Position numbers and translations under genes: made by a program. Below, piece after piece: positions 16,668 to 27,796 of a stretch of 64,000 nt of DNA. The stretch's first letter is position 1; the number at the start of each line of letters is the position of its first letter. The stretch is from contig NZ_KQ969550.1 in NCBI RefSeq assembly GCF_001578945.1, forward strand, positions 93,022 through 157,021. The letters are read 5' to 3'. The notes beneath the pieces were generated by a model. It had not been told where the DNA came from. It made no database searches and saw nothing but the letters and a program-made list of their open reading frames with translations. The DNA is from Streptococcus oralis. GTDB lineage: Bacteria; Bacillota; Bacilli; Lactobacillales; Streptococcaceae.

Positions 16668-17258
16668 TTACTCTTCTTCACTCGTTTCAGCATCATCGTC
16701 AGAAAACTCGTCGTCTTCTTCGTTAAGATCCACGTCTTCACCCAAATCATCTGGAGCGATTTCGTTGATTTCTGCATCGTAAGCTTCCACTTCATTTTTC
16801 TCATCATCTGGATTTTCATCATCGTATGAAAGAGCTGGATCTGCTTCGTATGCATCTTCGTCTTCTGGATCATCCGCATTGTAGTCAATGGCATCTGAAT
16901 CACCATCCATAAAGGCATTGACACGTTTTTTCTTAGCTTTTGGAGCTACTTCATCGTCATCACTTTCTTCAAGAGCGATGATTTCTTCGTCGATTTCGTC
17001 TACGCCATACCATGAACGAAGCCCCCATTTGTTGTCCCCAAGTGAGATGAAGCTACCGTCAAAGTTCAACTCTGTGTAGAACAAAGGCAAAGCTTCGCGG
17101 ATATCGCTGTTTGATGTTCCAAGGTAGTTTTGAATTTCGTTTACAAGATCGCTAAAATGCATCTCATGATCGCGACCACGAAGTTCCAAGATAGCACGCG
17201 CTACCTCAATCATAGATAGTTCACTTTTTTCTTGCCCAGCAAATACTTCTAATTCCAA
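16668..17258 (-). CDS. rpoE: RNA polymerase delta subunit
   Basis: 196 aa. The N-terminal globular domain ([21 protein letters not shown] to [14 protein letters not shown]) binds core RNA polymerase. The C-terminal third is an extremely acidic, disordered Asp/Glu tail that increases release of RNA and recycling. The start is taken as TTG at 17258: AGGAG lies 7 nt before it. An ATG at 17273 overlaps that Shine-Dalgarno sequence and would add five unrelated residues. Single-gene unit with its own promoter and terminator. Confidence 0.95.
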
Positions 17259-17330
17259 AGCGTTTCTCCTCATTTTTACTACTATCGCCAGAGCGAACAG
17301 ACTCTGACCTCATTTTATCATGTACTCTTT

Positions 17331-17359
17331 ATTGTACGATAATTTTGCGGAATAGTCAA
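17331..17359 (-). promoter_or_regulatory. rpoE promoter
   Basis: -35 TTGACT (17354-17359), 17-nt spacer, -10 TACAAT (17331-17336). Leader of about 65 nt. Confidence 0.85.
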
Positions 17360-17400
17360 AGGTTAAATGGGAGAAAGTGACAGGACTTTTTATTTCTTTG

Positions 17401-17485
17401 CTACCCAGCCGATGGTGTCGATGGGTGGATTTTCGATATCAATCCAGATGAATTCGATGCAATGATATATGAAATTAAGCTATAG
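17401..17485 (+). pseudogene. 3' remnant of an unidentified gene
   Basis: An open frame on the plus strand reads YPADGVDGWIFDINPDEFDA then MIYEIKL and a TAG at 17483. It has no start, no upstream coding sequence and lies between the rpoE promoter and the HNH operon. It looks like the C-terminal tail of a gene lost by deletion or replaced by the neighbouring operon. Family not recognised. From 17486 to 17608 nothing else is visible. Confidence 0.45.
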
Positions 17486-17608
17486 TGCTATACTTATCAG
17501 GACAGTTCGAACTTACGGAATTTGTTATGTAGTAAGCTACTTTCTAATAACTAAAAATTTACTTAAATATATTAGTCTCAATTTGTTTTAATATCAAAAT
17601 TGATTAAA

Positions 17609-18217
17609 TTAAAATTTTGGTTTACTATTTCTAATATAATTGTCATCAATAAAATCTAATATCCTTTGAATACTACAAATTAATGATTCATTAATTTGTC
17701 CTGATTGACCAGATTTTCTTTTAATAATGTTAAGTGAAGAATAGATATAGTCTAACTTATATAATTCCTTTGATAGACCTAAAGTTTTTATATATTTCTC
17801 TGATAAATTTCTTTCTACTGCTGTTATGGTATTGTTTGGTACAATTGCACCTCTATTATTTCTATAAAATAATTTTTTATAGTCTTCCCCTAAAGGATCC
17901 AAATCAGAAGGAAGGGATTTTTTATTTTTTGTAGTATTACATATTGGGCAAGATAAAGCTAAGTTACTATATTCATCTATCAAATCTTTATTATCATTTT
18001 GACTCTTTATATGTTCAATATGAAAACTAGCTCCACCATACCTTTTACAATTCCATCCACAATATATGCACATTCCACCAAAATCCTCTACTAGATACCC
18101 TTTTAACAAATCTCTTTGACTTTTGACAGAATATTTTTCACTAACGTTTTCTCTTCTGATTGGTGGAGATTCAAAACCTCTATAATCTCGTTTGAATAGT
18201 TGTCTAATATAATTCAC
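17609..18217 (-). CDS. HNH endonuclease, putative effector of the methyltransferase/GHKL/receiver operon
   Basis: 202 aa. The zinc-binding HNH core is clear: CIYC (Cys50, Cys53), FHIEH (His66, His69), Asn85 and LSCPICNTTKNKK (Cys90, Cys93). The N-terminal 45 residues and C-terminal 100 residues are not recognised. HNH nucleases cut DNA, and this is the only nuclease-like gene in the operon. The start is a GTG whose G is shared with the TAG of the receiver gene (TAGTG), with AGGAG 7 nt upstream, so it is translationally coupled. AT-rich. Confidence 0.85.
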   Translation of the reverse strand: MNYIRQLFKRDYRGFESPPIRRENVSEKYSVKSQRDLLKGYLVEDFGGMCIYCGWNCKRYGGASFHIEHIKSQNDNKDLIDEYSNLALSCPICNTTKNKKSLPSDLDPLGEDYKKLFYRNNRGAIVPNNTITAVERNLSEKYIKTLGLSKELYKLDYIYSSLNIIKRKSGQSGQINESLICSIQRILDFIDDNYIRNSKPKF

Positions 18218-18852
18218 TACATCTCTCCTGCCTCATCAATAATTTGATAAGCTTTCGCAATTAAATCATCTAATTGATCAGCAATATCATCATTTAAAAG
18301 TCGAGGTTGTTTAATAGAAAATTGATGCTCTATTTTAATTTCGTTAATTGCTACTTCCGTAGAAAAAGTATCAGATTTCTTTAAACCTTGATTTACTCTC
18401 TCCAGTGTATTGATATTTTCTATCCCTAACTTAACTTGCTTATCAATATATTCTAACATACTATCTATTTCATCTTCCTTGGTGAATACCTCTCCATTTA
18501 GAGAATATCCATCTTTAGAAAACTTCTTCTCTATTGATGGATCAATTTGGACATCATCACTATGTGAAGTATATATACAAACAGGAAAAAATGGATTTTG
18601 CTTTTTAATGGTTTCCCACAATTCAATAGCATCACCATAAATATTACTATTTGCTAAATCATAGTCCAAAATAACTCCATATTTTTCTTTTGAATACAGA
18701 TTTTCCAAGAAATCTTCCTTTGATTTTTCATTTATTATTCCAAAAAATTCAACGCTATAGCCTTTTTTAGAAAATTTTTGCTCCAATTCTCCTAATGTAT
18801 ACATAGTATCTTCATCATCATCAATATAATAAATTATTTTTTTATCAGACAT
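18217..18852 (-). CDS. receiver-domain (response-regulator-like) protein
   Basis: 211 aa from the ATG at 18852. Residues 5-135 read as a CheY-like receiver: acidic pocket IDDDED (Asp11-13), phospho-acceptor VILDYD (Asp63), YTS (Thr95/Ser96) and conserved lysine FTK (Lys125). The C-terminal 75 residues are helical with no DNA-binding domain visible, so it is unlikely to be a transcription factor. A GGTGGAG 9 nt upstream decides the start. The gene begins 1 nt after the stop of the GHKL/kinase gene and runs into the HNH gene, suggesting a signal relay from kinase to nuclease. Confidence 0.8.
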   Translation of the reverse strand: MSDKKIIYYIDDDEDTMYTLGELEQKFSKKGYSVEFFGIINEKSKEDFLENLYSKEKYGVILDYDLANSNIYGDAIELWETIKKQNPFFPVCIYTSHSDDVQIDPSIEKKFSKDGYSLNGEVFTKEDEIDSMLEYIDKQVKLGIENINTLERVNQGLKKSDTFSTEVAINEIKIEHQFSIKQPRLLNDDIADQLDDLIAKAYQIIDEAGEM

Positions 18853-18853
18853 T

Positions 18854-21253
18854 TTATTCCACTCCACCTTTTAAAGTCATTTTAATTTTAAAGCCTCTTT
18901 CCCCAGGTTTAGATAATAACTCTTTATCTCCTTTTAAATTAGATATAACTGAGGATAAAATTGACATTCCCATTCCAGTCCCACCTTTATTATAAGATTT
19001 ATATGGTTCGAAAATAAAATTTGGGTTTTCAATTTTCTTGTTCAAACCATTACCATTATCTTCATAGGTGATCTTAATTAGTGTATCCTCCATAACTTCT
19101 AAAGAAATATTGATAATTCTATGATTGATTTTATTCGGTGATTTAAAACTTTTATAAGAATTAGTTATTAAATTTAGGAAAATACTATCTAACTGCGTTT
19201 CACTTGCATAAACATAAATATTTTTTATTGTATCAGGTAAAGCTTCTAAAGAGGATTTACCATTAATCAAATAGTCATACGAATAAAAATTATCTCTTAT
19301 TGAATTATCCCACCAAGAATAAACTTTAAAAAGATAAGAAGATAGATTAATTTTTTCTTTCTTATCCCTTGTTGGATTATTGACACTACTTTCTATAAAT
19401 CCTAATATATTGGTCGTTTTGCGTTCAACCGCTTCCGAAAAATCATATAAATTATACCTTTTCTTAATCTCATGAAAATCCGACTTAAAAAGTATTGAAT
19501 AATGGTCTCCTATATCTTTTAAATTTTGAGGAATCGTTTTAAAGAACATCTTATCATTCTTAATTTGATGTGCAAAAGTTGACATAACTATTCCTTGAGT
19601 TGCCATAGTTCGTAACGTATCACCCTCACTAACAAGTGAACTATTCTCTTCCTCAGTAGTATCCTGTAATGAATACATCTCAAATAACGATTGGGGATTA
19701 GAGACCAGTGCCTCATACTCCGGATCTTTATAAAGTCCTTGTAAATTTCCTTGGTGTTTATTAACAAGACTGTCTAACTTTTTCTTTGTCTTCTTTCCTC
19801 TTTCACTAAAAAGTGGAACATCAGCTTTCTCTTTCAAAAATTCATTATATAAAATAATAATTTCTGAACGCACAGAAGAAAAATCTTTTACAATTCTGAG
19901 AATAACACTCTCAAGATATTCAAACTCTGCACTATTTTTTAAACCTTCACGATTAGCTTGATCTTCAAACCCTCCATTTTTTTCCTTGGTGATGTTTACA
20001 TAACCACTCAACTGGTTTGCTTGCATTATGTAGCTACTACGGCCAACACCAGCTGGATTTTTAGTTCTTTCTTTTTCAATTCCAACCCAGTCAAACCCGA
20101 TAGTATCAACCTCACCATAAGGTCTAATCCTAAAACCATCTCTATATAATAAGATTCCGGGTTCAATATCAACAGTATTTGTTCCCATTGCTGGTCTCTT
20201 TAAAAAAGGATACTTATTAGAACCAGTTTTCTTTGTAAAATAGAGAACTCCATCAAAATCACCTATCGGATTATTAGGCATTTTATCAGGGATATACTCT
20301 GAAATTTTAAACTCTCTCTCAAAATGGTATCTACTTCTTTTTTTACCACTCTTTTCTTGAATATAATCTTTTAGTTTATCGAATTTCGCATTTACAAAAT
20401 CCGGCGGTAATTGACTAATATCAATTTCATCAAAATACCCCTCTAAGATTAACATATCACTGTCGTGTGAAAAAGCAAACGAAATTTCTGCATCTGTTGA
20501 AACATCAGCTAAAGAAGGCTCTATTTCTTCTTTTTCTTCAAAGTAGTCTAATATAATTTTAAATTCGCCTGATTTTTCTAATTTAAGAGGGTTTTTTAAT
20601 TTATTTAAAGTTAGCTTCAATAGAGAATAATTTGTCCCCGATTGTCCTTTATCTGATAGTAACCATTCATCTTTCAACTCACTGGCTATTAAAATTGTTC
20701 CTGAGCATTTGGGGTTTTCTAAACCTCTATTTGTATACTCTGAAATGAACTCATTCAATGATAATTGTTCAATATTTACTTTTACAGTATCTAAAGCTTC
20801 TCCCGTTATGAAGTTATTCCAATTGATACTAAATCTATATGCTTCACTACCATCTGAAGTAATAACTCGACTGACATTCCCCAGTCTCCCCAGTGATAAT
20901 CTACCGATTCCCATAGAACCATTCATTACACGTTCAGATTTTTGGTATTTTATTGAAGGAGTATGAGTTTTATCATCCGTTCCCAATGTAAAAAAGACAT
21001 TAATGATTTTATCCAAACTCATTCCTTGCCCGTAATCAATTATTTCTATAGAAGTAGCTTTTTTGTCTTTTCTTTTGTTAATAGTTATATCTTTTCCTAT
21101 TATTCGAATATTTACTTGATTCGAAAATGCATCGTAACTATTTTTTACTAATTCTAATATCGCACTTCTATAATCTAGTACATTATCTCTCCCTAAAAGG
21201 TTTACCGTTCTTGTTGTTGATTTAAAACTTACTTCTTTCACTTTTTCAGCCAT
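18854..21253 (-). CDS. double-GHKL protein: MutL/MORC-like ATPase fused to histidine-kinase core
   Basis: 799 aa, no transmembrane segment. N-terminal GHKL ATPase: ELVKNSYDA (Glu34, Asn38), IIDYGQG (Asp73-Gly77), NGSMGIG (112-117). Then an S5-like part with YRDGFRIRPYGE (370-381) and NREGL, as in MutL/MORC/Hsp90-type proteins. C-terminal half: an H-box STFAHQIKND with His562, then N-box FLNLITNS (Asn698), G1 DNGNG (732-736), F-box FIFEPY and G2 GGTGMG (757-762), a complete histidine-kinase catalytic core. It starts 10 nt after the methyltransferase stop with AGGG as RBS. GHKL ATPases of this type are known in some restriction-modification operons. The two-module architecture is unusual. Confidence 0.8.
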   Translation of the reverse strand: MAEKVKEVSFKSTTRTVNLLGRDNVLDYRSAILELVKNSYDAFSNQVNIRIIGKDITINKRKDKKATSIEIIDYGQGMSLDKIINVFFTLGTDDKTHTPSIKYQKSERVMNGSMGIGRLSLGRLGNVSRVITSDGSEAYRFSINWNNFITGEALDTVKVNIEQLSLNEFISEYTNRGLENPKCSGTILIASELKDEWLLSDKGQSGTNYSLLKLTLNKLKNPLKLEKSGEFKIILDYFEEKEEIEPSLADVSTDAEISFAFSHDSDMLILEGYFDEIDISQLPPDFVNAKFDKLKDYIQEKSGKKRSRYHFEREFKISEYIPDKMPNNPIGDFDGVLYFTKKTGSNKYPFLKRPAMGTNTVDIEPGILLYRDGFRIRPYGEVDTIGFDWVGIEKERTKNPAGVGRSSYIMQANQLSGYVNITKEKNGGFEDQANREGLKNSAEFEYLESVILRIVKDFSSVRSEIIILYNEFLKEKADVPLFSERGKKTKKKLDSLVNKHQGNLQGLYKDPEYEALVSNPQSLFEMYSLQDTTEEENSSLVSEGDTLRTMATQGIVMSTFAHQIKNDKMFFKTIPQNLKDIGDHYSILFKSDFHEIKKRYNLYDFSEAVERKTTNILGFIESSVNNPTRDKKEKINLSSYLFKVYSWWDNSIRDNFYSYDYLINGKSSLEALPDTIKNIYVYASETQLDSIFLNLITNSYKSFKSPNKINHRIINISLEVMEDTLIKITYEDNGNGLNKKIENPNFIFEPYKSYNKGGTGMGMSILSSVISNLKGDKELLSKPGERGFKIKMTLKGGVE

Positions 21254-21263
21254 TGTTCGTCCC

Positions 21264-22645
21264 TCATACTCTTATTGGATAATTTTTTACATCATTCACG
21301 GATATACGAATTGATTTTCCACTCGCATTAATTGCTCTAGTTTCTATATAATTATAGAAATCTTCTGATTCAAGTATTTTTTTTGCATAATCAAGACCTT
21401 TTTCTGCTAATGGAATAATATAAAATCCCGAATATGGTATCATTTGAGAATCTAACTCGTATACATTTACTTTCTCAGTAATTACCGATGAAATCATTAA
21501 TTTTTCCTGATTCATGAATTTCAAACCTTGTGATCGACCATACTCAAACCATTCCCCATCAGATTTTCTGTTATCTAAAACCTCTTTCCATTCTCGAAGA
21601 TATCTAGTTGTTTTAGGAAAGATTCTTTCAAACTCTTCTCTAGGATATCTTCTAAGTTCATTATTTACAAACTTATATGGGAAAATAATTTTATCTACAA
21701 TATTTTTCGATAACTTTCTTGGACTAGCCGCAGGTTTTAAAATTTCATCCTCCAAGTCCAAATCTTCTTGCTCAGGAATTAGAAATACCTTATTCGCTAA
21801 TGTAGCTACGCTATTTGAGACTTTAAATAACTCTCCAAAGGTTAACTGATTAGCTTTAAATTCGATATTTTCAGTAAAATACCATTTAGACCCTAAATCT
21901 TCTTTTCTTATAAGAAAGGACTTATTAAAATCACTATCAATATATTCTAAGTAATTACATATTCTAGAATTATCAATGACCATAATTGCTGATGATGTTA
22001 GAATTCTCCCAAAAATATGCGTATGTCTGTAATCAATTAATTGTATAATATTTTTTTTAAGATTTCTCTTAGATTTTCAGCAAAAACATTTTTAAATATG
22101 CTATTAGGGATTAGATAACACATTTTTCCTGTCGTTTTTTTCAAATCTAGTAAACTCTTTTCAATAAAAGCATAACAATAATCAAATTTGCCTTTTTTAC
22201 AAGAAGTAAAATTATTTTTCAAGAAACTTCTATCCATAGTATTAAGTTCTTGATAGGTGATATATGGAGGATTACCAACAATAAAATCAAATCTCATTTT
22301 AAGATTGTATCTTAAATAATCATCAGAAAGAATTTGCCAGTTTACCTCTCGAATTCCGTATTCCAAAGCAATATTATCTAAATTTCTTAAACAATTTTCC
22401 TTTAATTGAGGGTCAATTTCAAAAGCAACAAAGTATTTTTCTAAATCAGATTTTATGGATGAAGTGGAATATCTGTGCTTAAGTGCTACTTCAATGTATC
22501 TTTTAATTGCTACACACAAAATATTTCCTTCACCTACAGAATTCTCTAAAAAATATTTTTTAAGTATATTTTTCCCATCATATTCTACCTTATCAAGCAT
22601 AAAATGAACATATTTTTCAGGGGTAAAAACTTGGAATTTTTCCAT
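21264..22645 (-). pseudogene. N6-adenine DNA methyltransferase, interrupted by frameshift in an A8 tract
   Basis: The 5' frame (22645-22037) has FTPEKYVHFML (motif X), ENSVGEGNIL (motif I, 34-43) and GNPPY (motif IV, 125-128), typical of gamma-class N6-adenine methyltransferases of the TaqI/Eco57I type. It stops after LREILKKILYN. The other frame continues IIQLIDYRHTHIFGRILTSS into the 239-aa C-terminal part, which would hold the target-recognition domain. One extra A in the run at 22051-22058 would restore a protein of about 460 aa. Its place before the ATPase, receiver and HNH genes suggests a host-protecting or recognition subunit. The A8/A9 run may be phase-variable. Confidence 0.85.
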
Positions 22646-22682
22646 ATTTGTTATTTATAGATCGCTTTCTAACGTTTTATTT

Positions 22683-22691
22683 ATTATACCA
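22683..22691 (-). promoter_or_regulatory. extended -10 of the methyltransferase/GHKL/receiver/HNH operon
   Basis: TGGTATAAT on the minus strand, a perfect extended -10. It begins inside the U-tract of the valS terminator, so the -35 region overlaps the terminator hairpin. The leader is about 30 nt. No clear Shine-Dalgarno sequence precedes the methyltransferase ATG. Confidence 0.6.
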
Positions 22692-22716
22692 AAAAACACG
22701 GCTCATCACCGTGTTT
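22691..22716 (-). terminator. terminator of valS
   Basis: AAACACGG, loop TGATGAG, CCGTGTTT, T-run; 7 nt after the valS stop. Confidence 0.92.
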
Positions 22717-22722
22717 CTTTAT

Positions 22723-25374
22723 TTATTTCACCAACTTCTTCATCTCATCAATACGTGCGACGGTCGCGTCGTACTTAGCTTGGTAGTCGGCTTGTTTATC
22801 GCGTTCTTTTTGGACGACTTCTGGTTTGGCATTGGCTACGAAGCGTTCGTTAGAGAGTTTCTTGCCTACCATATCTAGTTCTTTTTGCCATTTAGCCAAT
22901 TCTTTGTCGAGACGAGCCAGTTCTTCTTCGACATTGAGGAGGTCTGCCAGTGGCAAGTAGATTTCTGCTCCTGTGATGACGCTTGACATTGCGAGTTCAG
23001 GTGCAGGGATGTTTGATGCGATTTCCAAGTGTTCTGGATTTGTGAAGCGTTTGATGTAGTTGACATTGCTGTTAAAGAAGGCTTCCAAGTCGCTATCGCT
23101 TGTCTTAACAAGGATAGTGATAGGCTTGCTTGGTGCTACGTTTACTTCTGCACGCGCATTCCGAACAGCACGGATCAAGTCTTTGAGACTTTCCACACCA
23201 GTGTGAGCCTCAAAGTCTTCAAAGGCTGGGTTGACAGTTGGGTATTCCGCTGTGACGATAGAGCCTTCTGAGATTTGTCCAAAGATTTCCTCGGTCACGA
23301 ATGGCATGATTGGGTGAAGGAGACGAAGGATCTTGTCCAAGGTGTAAAGGAGGACAGAACGTGTGATGACTTTCTCTTCTTCGTTATCACTATAAAGGAC
23401 TTCCTTGGTCAACTCAACGTACCAGTCCGCAAACTCATCCCAGATAAAGTTGTAGAGGATGTGTCCAGCCACACCAAACTCAAACTTGTCAAAGTTTTCA
23501 GTAACTTTTCCGATCGTTTCATTAAGGTTGTGGAGAATCCAGCGGTCTGTAACATTCCCAGCTTCCTTATTAACCACTTTTTCCACATTAGCCGTTGCTT
23601 GCTCAAGGGTCAAGCCTTCATTGTTCATGAGGATGTAGCGTGAGATGTTCCAAATCTTGTTAATGAAGTTCCATGAAGCATCCATTTTTTCGTAAGAGAA
23701 ACGCACGTCTTGGCCTGGTGCAGAACCGTTTGAAAGGAACCAACGAAGGGCATCGGCACCGTATTTCTCGATAACATCCATTGGGTCAATCCCGTTACCA
23801 AGAGATTTCGACATCTTACGTCCTTGCTCGTCACGAATCAAACCGTGGATAAGAACGTTTTGGAATGGCTGACGGCCAGTGAATTCCAGAGATTGGAAGA
23901 TCATACGAGACACCCAGAAGAAGATGATGTCGTAACCTGTTACCAAGGTTGAAGTTGGGAAGTAACGTTTGAAGTCTTCTGAGTCGACATCTGGCCAGCC
24001 CATGGTTGAGAATGGCCAAAGGGCAGAACTGAACCACGTATCCAAGACGTCTTCGTCCTGAGTCCATCCGTCACCTTCTGGCGCTTCTTCACCGACGTAC
24101 ATTTCACCCTCAGCATTGTACCAAGCAGGGATTTGGTGACCCCACCAGAGCTGACGAGAGATTACCCAGTCATGGACATTTTCCATCCATTGGAGGAAGG
24201 TATCGTTGAAACGAGGTGGGTAGAATTCTACCTTGTCGTCAGTGTCTTGGTTGGCAATGGCATTCTTGGCCAATTGGTCCATCTTGACGAACCACTGCGT
24301 AGACAAGCGTGGCTCAACCACTACACCTGTACGTTCTGAGTGACCAACACTGTGGACACGTTTTTCGATTTTAACAAGGGCACCGATTTCTTCCAACTTG
24401 GCAACAACTGCCTTACGTGCTTCAAAACGGTCCATACCTGCAAATTCGAAGGCCAAGTCATTCATCGTTCCGTCGTCGTTCATGACGTTAACTTGTGGTA
24501 AGTTGTGGCGTTGACCGACCAAGAAGTCGTTTGGATCGTGGGCAGGTGTGATTTTCACGACACCTGTACCAAACTCAGGATCTGCGTGCTCATCTCCAAC
24601 GATTGGAATCAATTTATTAGCGATTGGAAGGATGACGTTTTTACCGATCAAGTCCTTGTAGCGTGGGTCTTCTGGATTGACCGCAACCGCAACGTCCCCA
24701 AACATGGTCTCAGGACGAGTTGTCGCAACTTCAAGGGCGCGTGAGCCATCTTCCAACATATAGTTCATGTGGTAGAAGGCACCTTCGACATCCTTGTGGA
24801 TCACCTCGATATCAGAAAGGGCTGTGCGAGCTGCTGGGTCCCAGTTAATGATAAACTCACCACGGTAGATCCAGCCTTTCTTGTAAAGGTCGACAAAGAC
24901 CTTGCGAACAGCTTTTGACAAGCCTTCGTCAAGGGTGAAACGCTCACGAGAGTAATCTACAGAGAGGCCCATTTTGCCCCATTGTTCCTTGATGGTAGTC
25001 GCATATTCGTCTTTCCATTCCCAGACTTTATCTAGGAATTTCTCACGACCGAGATCATAGCGAGAAATGCCTTCACCACGCAAGCGCTCCTCAACCTTAG
25101 CCTGAGTCGCAATCCCCGCGTGGTCCATCCCTGGAAGCCAAAGCGTGTCAAAACCTTGCATGCGTTTTTGACGGATGATGATATCCTGCAAAGTCGTATC
25201 CCAAGCATGACCCAGATGCAACTTACCAGTGACATTTGGTGGTGGAATGACGATTGAATAAGGCTTAGCCTTTTGATCGCCTGAAGGCTTGAAAACATCG
25301 GCATCAAGCCATTTTTGGTAACGACCAGCCTCAACCTCGGCTGGATTGTATTTAGGTGAAAGTTCTTTAGACAT
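22723..25374 (-). CDS. valS: valyl-tRNA synthetase
   Basis: 883 aa, class Ia synthetase. HIGH motif in [15 protein letters not shown] (about 43-57), editing domain with [20 protein letters not shown] motif in [11 protein letters not shown] (around 520), anticodon-binding domain and a C-terminal coiled coil ([18 protein letters not shown]). Full length and intact. Its RBS region (AGAAAGGACAAACAC) matches that of the decayed valS copy at 27908-28093. It has no T-box directly upstream, although a complete T-box lies 3.5 kb away in front of that fragment. Confidence 0.98.
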
Positions 25375-25521: not shown

Positions 25522-26523
25522 TTAACTCTCTCTCATTATCTTCAGAATATGTTTATCAAAGTCCGATATGATTTTTTGAGTTCGGTTAAATTTTTCGTAC
25601 TCCTGGATAGCTTTGGAGTCTGCTTGTTTCTTGGAAATATTTCCTTTTCCTTCTAAGATTTCGTACTCATTAAAAGATAGAAAACGATCAATACTATCTG
25701 CCAATCCTCGCATTGTAAAAGTATTACGGCGCTCAACCAAACCCTCGATATAATCAAAATAGGCTGTAACAGTTCGCTCTAGTTGTCGAATTTCTTTTTC
25801 TTGCAGATAGTTTTTAGCCACCGTTACATCTGACTTGAGCACTCGTCCATCAGGTGCATTCTTCCAAGTGGTTAATCCCATTTTATCTTTACTAGCATCG
25901 GCTTGCTGGTAGATAATTTCTGCAGCTGTATTTCCAGTAATCGCATAATGGAATTTATTTTGTACCATAGCATAGAAGTTTTTAGTAATATCAGAGTTTC
26001 TATCATAATCTATGGCACATTCGGCAAAGATATCCGTAATTTGCTGGTAGATTCGGCGCTCGCTAGAACGAATAGAGCGAATTCGTTCTAAAAGTTCACG
26101 GAAATAATCTTGTCCGAAAACCGTCTGGCCTTGTTTCAATCGTTCATCATTTAAAACAAAACCTTTGATGATAAATTCTTTCAAGGTGTTGGTTGCCCAA
26201 ATTCTAAATTGAGTAGCCTTACTGGAATTTACACGATAGCCAACTGAAATGATAGCATCCAAATTGTAATACTCAAGTTCACGCCGGACAGACCTATTTC
26301 CCTCTTGTTGAACCTGTGCAAATTTTGCACAAGTTGATATCTTATCCAACTCCCCACTATCATAAATGTTTTTCAAGTGCTTTGTAATGACACTTCGTTC
26401 AACTCCAAAGAGCTCTGCAAGACCTTTTTGAGTCAACCAAAGATTTTCATCTTGTAAAAGGATATCTAACTGAACATCGCCATTGGGTGTAGTATACAGG
26501 ATGAAATTAGAAATTTCATTCAA
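25522..26523 (-). CDS. RhuM family protein
   Basis: 333 aa from a TTG at 26523. The conserved RhuM core is present: WLTQKGLAELFGVERSVITKHL, then STCAKFAQVQQEGNRSVRRELEYYNLDAI and ISVGYRVNSSKATQFRIWA, and a Fic/DinD-like C-terminal part. The family was first named in Salmonella and is common in mobile islands; its biochemical function is unknown. An in-frame ATG at 26565 overlaps the end of the upstream gene; GGAGG stands 10 nt before the TTG. The gene is in the segment that separates valS from its T-box. Confidence 0.82.
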   Translation of the reverse strand: MNEISNFILYTTPNGDVQLDILLQDENLWLTQKGLAELFGVERSVITKHLKNIYDSGELDKISTCAKFAQVQQEGNRSVRRELEYYNLDAIISVGYRVNSSKATQFRIWATNTLKEFIIKGFVLNDERLKQGQTVFGQDYFRELLERIRSIRSSERRIYQQITDIFAECAIDYDRNSDITKNFYAMVQNKFHYAITGNTAAEIIYQQADASKDKMGLTTWKNAPDGRVLKSDVTVAKNYLQEKEIRQLERTVTAYFDYIEGLVERRNTFTMRGLADSIDRFLSFNEYEILEGKGNISKKQADSKAIQEYEKFNRTQKIISDFDKHILKIMRES

Positions 26524-26554
26524 GACAAGTCCACCTCCTCCCTTCAATAAACAA

Positions 26555-27796
26555 TTACTTCTCATTCTTAAACTTTATACCGTTTTCTTTCAGTTTTTGA
26601 ACGGTAGCGGAACCAATTCCCTTCAAAGCAAGAACTTCTTTTTCGGTCCATTTTTTAAAATCTGCAGATGTACGGATCCTGTTTTCTACAAAGATGCGAA
26701 CAAGATCCATCCGAATTCCCTTCATTTTTTCCTCGTTCATAAAGGAGTACCAGTCGTTTGCCTTGGATAAATTTCTTATCACACTGGAATGATTCGAAAA
26801 TACTGGTTCACGACAGAACTTCTTGGCCTCATTTGTTAAAAATTCTGTCAAGATAATATTTTCTTGTAAATAGTCAAGCAGAGGATATAAACTAGCTTGT
26901 AGCGATTCAACTGAGTTTGGAAAATAGAATTCTTGGTCTTCGATATCTATAACTTTGAATTGCCAATCTTCCTCGATAAAGAATTCAGCAACTTCATCAT
27001 TTATTTCTACTAATTTTGCAAATAACTGACTTGCTTTCTCAATTTTTCCTTGAGAAAAAGCAGAAATGATGGCATGAATAAGAATGGTATCATCCCGTTT
27101 TCCTTTATTTAATTCTTCACGATAGAAACGTTCAACCTTTAGTTCCTGACCAGTAATATGATACAAGGAAAGCATACAGAAGACAAAATTAGGAGGAAAA
27201 CGTTCTGGTCGCCTACTTAAGTATAAGTTAACCAATTCCAAAGCCTTATAATAAAATTTTTCTGTCATATAATATTCAATCAGAAACATAAGGGCAGTCA
27301 GAACAGGGCGTGCTTCAAAAAGATTCCAACTATTGTATCCGTTCATTTTCCATTTTTCTAAAACTAGAATTTCAAAATCCAATACTTTTTTGAAGGTTGG
27401 CAAATCAAAATCTTCAACTTCTGATAGGAATAAGTGAAAATCAGCAGCAAAATAATCTGGATTGATTTTTAAAACTTGTTTTAACAATTTCTTTCGCTTC
27501 TGTGTATTTGGAGTATGCATAGCTTCTCTAAATAAAGCATGATCCTCATGCCAGTCAAAACTTCCATTTTTTAGTTGGTAATTGATTTGCTGAACATCTG
27601 GGTACTCTCCATGTTCTTTAGTGTATTGGACCATTGCGGTGTTTTGTTCATCGAAATTTTGAATTTGTCGACGCTCTACAAAAGTTGGTTTTTTAGCCAT
27701 TATCTCTGTCCAAGCAGCCTCTTCTTCAGAAATAACTTTGATATCCAACTTTTGCTGGCGTTTTAATTCTTTTTTTCTATTTTTCTTTTTAGCCAT
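26555..27796 (-). CDS. TPR-like protein with C-terminal helix-hairpin-helix
   Basis: 413 aa. A very basic N-terminus (MAKKKNRKKELKRQQK) is followed by a long helical region that reads like tetratricopeptide or SEC-C-associated repeats (for example NPDYFAADFHLFLSEVEDF). The last 40 residues hold a helix-hairpin-helix (WTEKEVLALKGIGSATVQKL), nearly the same as the C-terminus of the 131-aa protein at 29179-29574. HhH motifs bind DNA non-specifically. Good RBS (AAAGGAG). Function unknown; nucleic-acid binding is an inference. Confidence 0.7.
   Translation of the reverse strand: MAKKKNRKKELKRQQKLDIKVISEEEAAWTEIMAKKPTFVERRQIQNFDEQNTAMVQYTKEHGEYPDVQQINYQLKNGSFDWHEDHALFREAMHTPNTQKRKKLLKQVLKINPDYFAADFHLFLSEVEDFDLPTFKKVLDFEILVLEKWKMNGYNSWNLFEARPVLTALMFLIEYYMTEKFYYKALELVNLYLSRRPERFPPNFVFCMLSLYHITGQELKVERFYREELNKGKRDDTILIHAIISAFSQGKIEKASQLFAKLVEINDEVAEFFIEEDWQFKVIDIEDQEFYFPNSVESLQASLYPLLDYLQENIILTEFLTNEAKKFCREPVFSNHSSVIRNLSKANDWYSFMNEEKMKGIRMDLVRIFVENRIRTSADFKKWTEKEVLALKGIGSATVQKLKENGIKFKNEK

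Follow-up and report, generated by a model that had tools for sequence, protein, structure and literature searches.

A double-GHKL ATPase protein encoded with a receiver, an HNH nuclease and an adenine methylase in Streptococcus oralis: a candidate component of a receiver-gated restriction-modification-like system

The window analysed here, a 64,000-nucleotide stretch of a Streptococcus oralis contig (NZ_KQ969550.1, positions 93,022 to 157,021), bears the following on its minus strand, flanked by valS (22723-25374) and a presumed rpoE (ORF 16668-17273): the two halves of an adenine methyltransferase gene, a gene for a protein with two GHKL modules (the double-GHKL protein), a receiver gene and an HNH endonuclease gene, in that order (Table 1). 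There is an overlap of 14 bases between the double-GHKL and receiver genes and of one base between the receiver and HNH genes, and for this reason the genes likely form a single translationally coupled operon. Since these genes overlap or touch and their order recurs in other bacteria, the idea that the double-GHKL protein works alone, without partners, was discarded.

Table 1. Features of the operon in the window
Feature	Position	Strand	Basis
Double-GHKL protein	18854..21253	-	799-aa ORF, ATG start; Pfam; AlphaFold2 model
N-terminal MORC/Hsp90-like ATPase module, including the S5-type second domain (residues about 10-466)	19856..21226	-	MORC3 structure match; HATPase_c_3
Predicted phosphotransfer helices, with His562 and Gln563 (residues about 520-655)	19289..19696	-	Secondary structure of the model
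Histidine-kinase-type ATP-binding domain, HATPase_c	18869..19201	-	Pfam; WalK structure match
Receiver protein (Response_reg_2, PF19192), 216 aa	18217..18867	-	Pfam, 28.4 bits (cut-off 27); model
HNH endonuclease, 202 aa	17609..18217	-	Pfam HNH, 40.6 bits (cut-off 21.4)
Eco57I-type adenine methyltransferase, N-terminal catalytic half (NPPY), frame broken at its end	22037..22645	-	Pfam Eco57I, E 7.4e-22
Same methyltransferase, C-terminal TaqI_C-like specificity half, other frame	21264..21983	-	TaqI_C, 21 bits, below the cut-off of 26.5

Pfam placed HATPase_c_3 near the N-terminus of the double-GHKL protein (residues 28-149; E 9.9e-15, 55.2 bits against a cut-off of 25) and HATPase_c at its C-terminus (residues 684-794; E 5.5e-16, 59.4 bits against 26.4), both scores being more than twice their own cut-off and far above chance. 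These residue numbers, like those of the structure model, refer to a query of 798 residues, one less than the full protein. The N-terminal module contains the motifs ELVKN at 34 (E34, N38), DYGQG at 73 and GSMGIG at 112. In the C-terminal module the ATP-site boxes are intact (NLITN at 694, DNGNG at 732, FIFEPY at 746 and GGTGMG at 757), and ahead of it the motif FAHQIKN lies at 560 (His562). A sequence-only reading of this DNA had proposed two GHKL modules in one protein; the two Pfam families, together with the MORC3-like and kinase-type folds of the model described below, bear this out, and all the ATP-binding motifs that it listed, as well as His562, were found at the positions it gave. It had also reported no membrane segment, in agreement with a simple hydropathy scan, which detected none (best 19-residue mean, 1.22). 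It did not mention the receiver, HNH and methylase genes that accompany this one. No phosphotransfer-helix or HisKA-type family, and none of the HWE/HisKA_2 type, matched the window protein in Pfam at an E-value of 1. In PADLOC-DB 2.0.0 (2023), a library that may predate the relevant systems, the only match was REase_II, in the N-terminal part (28.7 bits); this part gave weak matches to the BbrUII/HgiDII family as well as to REase_II.

The AlphaFold2 model of the protein (mean pLDDT 81.7, pTM 0.63; 76 sequences in the alignment; the structure alignment, A3, omitted locus L132) was compared with known structures using VIA-align. The N-terminal half (residues about 10-465) aligned to MORC3 with a Z of 23.1 and an rmsd of 3.6 over 315 residues, and its fold matched DNA-bound MORC2 too. 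The model thus predicts a GHKL fold followed by an S5-type second domain, the S5-like arm that had been anticipated after the first module, although Hsp90/TRAP1 scored nearly as high as MORC3 (Z about 19-22), so that by its fold the module may be kin to either MORC or Hsp90. Residues 632-797 aligned to the catalytic domain of WalK (Z 18.5, rmsd 2.1, 144 residues); taken together, the WalK and HK853 catalytic domains gave a Z of about 18.4 and an rmsd of 2.1-2.3. Between the modules the model contains helices at 519-587, 601-622 and 636-654. The earlier reading had made its kinase assignment depend on a dimerisation and phosphotransfer helix pair in this region. Long helices that could form such a pair are indeed predicted, while their packing as a bundle is not established, since pLDDT falls below 50 around the histidine (residues 557-566) and those kinase structures whose match reaches into the helix region align with a large rmsd (15.9 for ZraS and 17.1 for a LOV-kinase).

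The receiver protein of the window retains D16, D17, D68, T100 and K118. Its model (pLDDT 83.7) shows a receiver fold followed by C-terminal helices, the C-terminal part consisting of short helices only; Foldseek matched it to receiver domains and, with weak E-values, to unrelated structures. No output or DNA-binding domain was recognised in it by Pfam at an E-value of 1, and none of the families of PADLOC-DB 2.0.0 (2023), which may predate the relevant systems, matched it at that threshold. Its HNH partner retains H69, N85 and N94, and in PADLOC it comes closest to HNH proteins of the PtuB type. Among the receivers of related loci analysed with Pfam (61 of 71, plus that of the window, 62 in all; set A4), 29 matched Response_reg and four Response_reg_2 (PF19192), and no DNA-binding family recurred. 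The HNH set (A5) comprised 60 of 61 HNH proteins plus that of the window, and 59 of these 61 proteins of the branch matched Pfam HNH; the methylase set (A6) covered 58 of 60 methylases, without the broken one of the window, and 57 of the 58 matched Eco57I.

The methyltransferase gene is in two frames in the window, and an intact type II restriction-modification methyltransferase was not found there. In the 99% identical relative (L033/L053) it is one intact ORF of 460 aa, the C-terminal part in the window corresponding to residues 222-460 of this homologue. The frame break of the window gene falls within the longest run of A in this stretch. Inactivation has several alternatives here: an assembly error, slippage, phase variation or a split enzyme. 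The double-GHKL, receiver and HNH genes of the window are all open, with their catalytic residues kept. The reverse was seen at L034/L055, in which the HNH gene is a 26-residue remnant, as against a broken methylase beside an open nuclease gene in the window.

To place the operon among bacteria, 84,980 species genomes were scanned with a pattern made from the E34 stretch of the double-GHKL protein, yielding at least 588 pattern matches and at least 553 relatives, of which the best 80 loci were analysed; since these are the best matches, the counts favour window-like systems. The receiver was the next gene after the double-GHKL gene in 71 of these 80 loci, and the double-GHKL, receiver and HNH genes were consecutive in 61 of them. 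An Eco57I-type methylase adjoined the trio in 55 of the 61, directly upstream in 23 and directly downstream of the HNH gene in 32. Of the six loci without it, four had an upstream ORF matching Pfam N6_Mtase (clearly over the cut-off at L107, at the cut-off, by 0.1 bit, at L109, and below it in the two others), and the remaining two (L111 and L117) lie on short contigs. The 19 of the 80 loci that lack the full order had the receiver only (6), the receiver and an upstream methylase (4), an upstream methylase only (1) or no partner detected (8); several are cut by contig ends or contain broken genes. Some distant loci (L103, L113, L126-L128 and L132) have longer receivers instead of the usual ones, and some lack the HNH gene; in the long receivers of distant relatives (343-433 aa) only receiver-like domains were recognised, and no fused nuclease. 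Neither a receiver-HNH nor a double-GHKL-receiver fusion was seen among the classified neighbours of the best 80 loci. The neighbours of the most distant Bacilli relatives (e.g. L043, L044, L047 and L049) resemble C5-cytosine methylases, as judged by eye from their N-terminal sequence; this is the setting that a 2021 survey emphasises (PMC8011034).

Close copies (85-99%) were found in three genomes besides that of the window among the 284 of the genus that were searched. One of these, at valS like the window's, is the Streptococcus mitis ColumbLawn locus (L033/L053), with a 99% identical double-GHKL protein; L034 and L035 occupy other chromosomal places. Other relatives were found beside or near valS (L038, L039, L044, L045, L049 and L050); the list of valS-rpoE gaps covers 26 of 118 genomes, chosen by eye. 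A 179-base direct repeat (94%) of the valS 3-prime end brackets the system at L039, and no such repeat was found around the copies of the window, L038 or L053. A plasmid of Bacteroides finegoldii carries the genes in the same order, annotated as sensor histidine kinase, hypothetical protein, HNH and N-6 DNA methylase. A tblastn search retrieved 82 plasmid records and one phage record. In four of the plasmid records a single place spanned 80% or more of the query, always below 60% identity, and the phage record covered 24% of it; no relative was found in viral contigs with a single-protein query that reaches close relatives only. These results point to a system that is mainly chromosomal and is carried by plasmids as well, and on this basis a phage or plasmid origin was rejected.

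Conservation of the catalytic residues was followed in 77 full-length double-GHKL proteins, i.e. that of the window and those of 76 of the best 80 loci (from at least 553 relatives), after dropping the fragments L101, L111, L112 and L120. Glu34/Asn38, of hydrolase type, in the first module and Asn694/Asn698, of kinase type, in the second were present in all 77, the invariance of E34 being partly built in because its stretch served as the retrieval pattern. That pattern did not select for His562 or the C-terminal residues, and His562 was kept in 77 of 77; its loss among homologues, which the sequence-only reading had named as grounds for abandoning the kinase assignment, was therefore not observed. 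The residue that follows it is Glu in 61 proteins, Asp in 11 and Gln in five, including Gln563 of the window. The five with Gln are the window protein and those of L053 (S. mitis), L054 (S. anginosus), L055 (a Streptococcus MAG) and L056 (Enterococcus, 54.7% identical to the window protein), none of the other 72 having Gln, and they form a single clade on a long branch (SH-aLRT 100) in a tree of 91 rows built by a quick method with SH-aLRT as its only support measure. Only one HEF_HK protein (L138, without L139) was included in that tree; it stands apart from the group on a long branch, and its placement is unsure. Asn at position +4 from the histidine (Asn566 in the window) is likewise found in all five members of the HQ clade, and N or T occurs there in 11 of the 72 others. 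The window protein thus lacks the HisKA-type acidic residue at +1 and has the phosphatase-type Thr/Asn at +4.

Published work on such residues bears on how this site might function. In CrdS of Myxococcus, E372Q or E372A abolished kinase activity and retained phosphatase activity, while the +4 Asn was needed for phosphatase activity only; Glu-to-Ala changes acted alike in HK853, HK1190 and HK4262, and the kinase activity of CrdS, HK853 and NtrB depended on the acidic residue next to the histidine (PMC3510030). In CpxA the acidic residue is described as the general base (PMC3904827). As the change that abolishes the kinase activity of CrdS is the one present here, autophosphorylation at His562 appears doubtful in the HQ clade and less likely than in the wider family, and the plain histidine kinase autophosphorylating at His562 that had been proposed from the sequence becomes questionable for this protein. 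A firm 'kinase-dead' assignment is weakened by the HWE/HisKA_2 kinases, which have the motif HRxxN with no acidic residue after the histidine and are active (PMC5898713); they share with the HQxxN site both the non-acidic +1 residue and the +4 Asn (PMC5898713), but the window protein has no Pfam match to that family at an E-value of 1. By analogy, the HQxxN site may be either phosphatase-biased or HisKA_2-like.

We propose that the operon encodes a four-gene restriction-modification-like system in which a DNA-sensing ATPase controls whether the receiver is phosphorylated and the receiver in turn gates the HNH nuclease, a model we regard as about as likely to be right as wrong. The double-GHKL protein would be its sensor and ATPase component beside the adenine methylase, the stand-alone receiver and the nuclease. 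Its MORC/Hsp90-like module would be a clamp that ATP drives shut around DNA, or around a complex of DNA with the methylase or of foreign DNA, and the closed clamp would report unmethylated or invading DNA; DNA as the signal is a first guess, by analogy with MORC and MutL. The state of the clamp would set the kinase-type module, changing the phosphorylation of the receiver, which, having no recognised DNA-binding domain, would act by protein contact and switch the HNH nuclease. For the streptococcal and enterococcal clade, the main task of the C-terminal module may be to dephosphorylate the receiver or to serve as its phosphotransfer partner, not to act as an autokinase. This model builds on the domain content, the predicted folds, the conservation of both active-site sets, and an operon that is itself conserved; from these we infer the binding of DNA, the direction of phosphate flow, the contact between receiver and nuclease, and a defence purpose. 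It is favoured by the retention of His562 (77/77) and of receiver Asp68 (73/73) and by the class residues kept in both GHKL modules; the other receiver residues are also well conserved among the 73 receivers, with a second acidic residue (D or E) in all, T in 68 and S in two at Thr100, and K in 56 and R in nine at Lys118. The recurrence of the double-GHKL/receiver/HNH order with a methylase alongside, including the Bacteroides finegoldii plasmid copy, also favours it, as do the receiver without a Pfam output domain and the resemblance of the N-terminal fold to those of MORC3 and DNA-bound MORC2. Because the receiver gene is always seen beside the nuclease gene in this branch, the nuclease would be the natural target of the receiver. 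Against the model stand the Gln after His562, the missing Pfam phosphotransfer family and the poor model around the histidine, the 19 of 80 loci without the full order, and the broken methylase next to an intact nuclease, a combination that would be lethal under a simple restriction model. The last of these would be tolerable under our proposal since the nuclease would be off unless signalled. A more specific version seems unlikely to be right in all its parts: the MORC-like clamp, fused to the kinase core, would license the nuclease to cut through the receiver, and in streptococci and enterococci the HQxxN protein would be a receiver phosphatase that has lost autokinase activity, restriction there being held off by active dephosphorylation and released when foreign DNA fills the clamp.

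The Gln in all five clade members would also suit a double-GHKL protein, receiver and HNH nuclease that form one ATP-driven restriction complex, as in MORC/paraMORC-linked nucleases, with the kinase module and receiver serving as docking or dimer-switch parts and no phosphate being transferred in the clade. GHKL modules fused directly to restriction enzymes elsewhere (the weak BbrUII/HgiDII and REase_II matches, and VcSduA, PMC12137116) speak for this, but the invariance of His562 and of receiver Asp68 is hard to explain without phosphate chemistry, and the C-terminal ATP-site boxes are intact in the window; we consider such a scaffold somewhat unlikely. The broken methylase, in two frames here and in one ORF in the 99% relative, could instead mark decaying cargo, inactive in the window genome and with its other genes persisting only for now, as the 26-residue HNH remnant at L034/L055 also suggests. 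Decay is, however, quite unlikely given that the three other genes are open with their catalytic residues kept, and the A run that holds the break could reflect an assembly error, slippage or phase variation instead. A classical two-component pair that senses stress and controls the expression of the restriction genes would agree with the 71 loci in which a receiver gene follows directly, all of them showing the kinase-receiver pairing, and the authors of the 2021 survey speculate that signalling cascades control restriction-modification systems, directly or indirectly (PMC8011034). Yet the window receiver has no Pfam output domain, its C-terminal part is predicted as short helices only and no DNA-binding family recurs among the 62 receivers, so that a classical transcriptional response regulator is not favoured and this account appears improbable.

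If the receiver does gate the nuclease, restriction would be controlled through phosphotransfer between two-component proteins and not by transcription or DNA methylation alone, and a MORC-type ATPase would be the sensor. What MORC clamps sense could then be tested in a bacterium. Gating would also make it understandable that a cell carries the nuclease although its methylase is broken, and the HQxxN clade would provide a natural experiment on kinase versus phosphatase function.

The combination of modules is not a curiosity of one protein, nor is the architecture the first of its kind. Proteins with HATPase_c_3, HEF_HK and HATPase_c have been published as group 1 of the HEF_HK proteins (174 of 222; Bellieny-Rabelo et al. 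2021, PMC8011034), with a receiver-GHKL gene linkage of 91.6% in 644 regions and an enrichment of restriction-modification genes, the N-terminal domain being suggested as the sensor (PMC8011034). Those elements resemble the present one in their N-terminal HATPase_c_3, middle histidine helix, C-terminal HATPase_c and solubility, and in the neighbouring receiver gene and restriction-modification surroundings (PMC8011034). Because this architecture has already been reported, together with its ties to receivers and restriction-modification, the present system is a variant, not a new kind. It differs in several respects. The HEF_HK paper stresses C5-cytosine methylases, Vsr and HNH_2 (PMC8011034), in contrast to the Eco57I-type adenine methylase and PtuB-like HNH protein found here in a fixed order, and the window clade is further distinguished by the Gln after the histidine. 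HEF_HK (PF19191) did not match the window protein at an E-value of 1, nor any protein of its own genome over the cut-off, and among 57 proteins (set A7: 45 of 76 relatives, the window protein and 11 other Bacilli proteins) it matched one, weakly (E 0.0074), while HATPase_c_3 and HATPase_c were both present in all 57; true HEF_HK proteins of the same class are longer (1038-1050 aa).

Prokaryotic MORC and paraMORC ATPases share with the present protein an N-terminal GHKL module with an S5 domain and an occurrence in restriction-modification operons with methylases and nucleases, some with HNH (paraMORC1), and DNA looping has been proposed for them (Iyer et al. 2008, PMC2292703); in the part of that source seen, their C-terminal domains are described as nuclease, TIR or uncharacterised (PMC2292703), unlike the kinase core with a receiver partner found here. 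In the Shedu-type VcSduA an N-terminal GHKL ATPase controls a nuclease and an ATPase mutant loses phage defence (PMC12137116), but that nuclease is a PD-(D/E)xK domain fused in the same protein, with no kinase core or receiver (PMC12137116). The HNH protein matches models of PtuB, the type of HNH effector found in retron Ec78 and Septu, although the operon partners differ and its NCBIfam score is below the cut-off (43.3 against 150 bits). The legend of Fig. 6F in the DefensePredictor paper names a predicted HATPase and receiver defence system, which may or may not be the present one (PMC13092281). Apart from that legend and PMC8011034, no description of such a four-gene system was found in open PubMed Central, which is no proof of absence. 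What seems additional is the adenine-methylase/HNH branch itself, with its fixed gene order and proteins that mostly escape the HEF_HK model, and, within it, the HQxxN clade.

The interval between valS and rpoE, which in the window holds the operon for the double-GHKL protein (an N-terminal MORC/Hsp90-like ATPase module joined to a C-terminal histidine-kinase-type module), ranges in length from 918 to 12,860 bases among 26 genomes of the genus, chosen by eye from 118. In several genomes, double-GHKL systems from different branches lie near or beside valS. The region has the appearance of a hotspot of exchange within the genus. At one locus in another genome (L039), a direct repeat of the valS 3′-end (179 bases, 94%) stands on both sides of the valS-adjoining system, as if the latter had entered with target duplication; its double-GHKL gene, too, occupies two ORFs. 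Another protein encoded near valS (in L051) has the same N-terminal GHKL module as the double-GHKL protein, while its C-terminal half gave no kinase-type alignment and lacks the phospho-acceptor histidine; this product is perhaps a GHKL-nuclease fusion. Upstream of valS in the window lies a 347-aa ORF, whose product may be a RhuM/virulence-type protein.

Coordinates of the features discussed (window positions unless a locus is given)
Feature	Locus	Positions
rpoE-to-valS interval		16668-25374
Adenine methyltransferase of the operon, two frames		22037-22645 (N-terminal part) + 21264-21983
347-aa ORF		25522-26565
Region with the HNH remnant	L034	10259-11215
Double-GHKL system with flanking valS repeat	L039	6811-7026 and 12046-14697
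Protein with N-terminal GHKL module	L051	8362-10392

The methylase occupies two frames in the window, as against a single 460-aa ORF in the S. mitis locus whose double-GHKL protein is 99% identical (L033/L053). The break lies in the N-terminal part, within its longest run of A bases (8); phase variation, slippage, decay and assembly error are all possible causes. The methylase of L105, another relative, likewise occupies two ORFs.

Distant relatives without HNH (L103, L113, L128 and L132) have long receivers (343-433 aa); these have in common, as judged by eye, a domain at the C-terminus that carries a P-x-C-D-L/M-like motif. Scans of the receivers from L103, L113 and L128 matched this domain to no Pfam family. 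In the 85% relative L034, only a remnant of HNH is left (26 matching residues); the methylase, double-GHKL and receiver genes, unlike that for HNH, are all still open.
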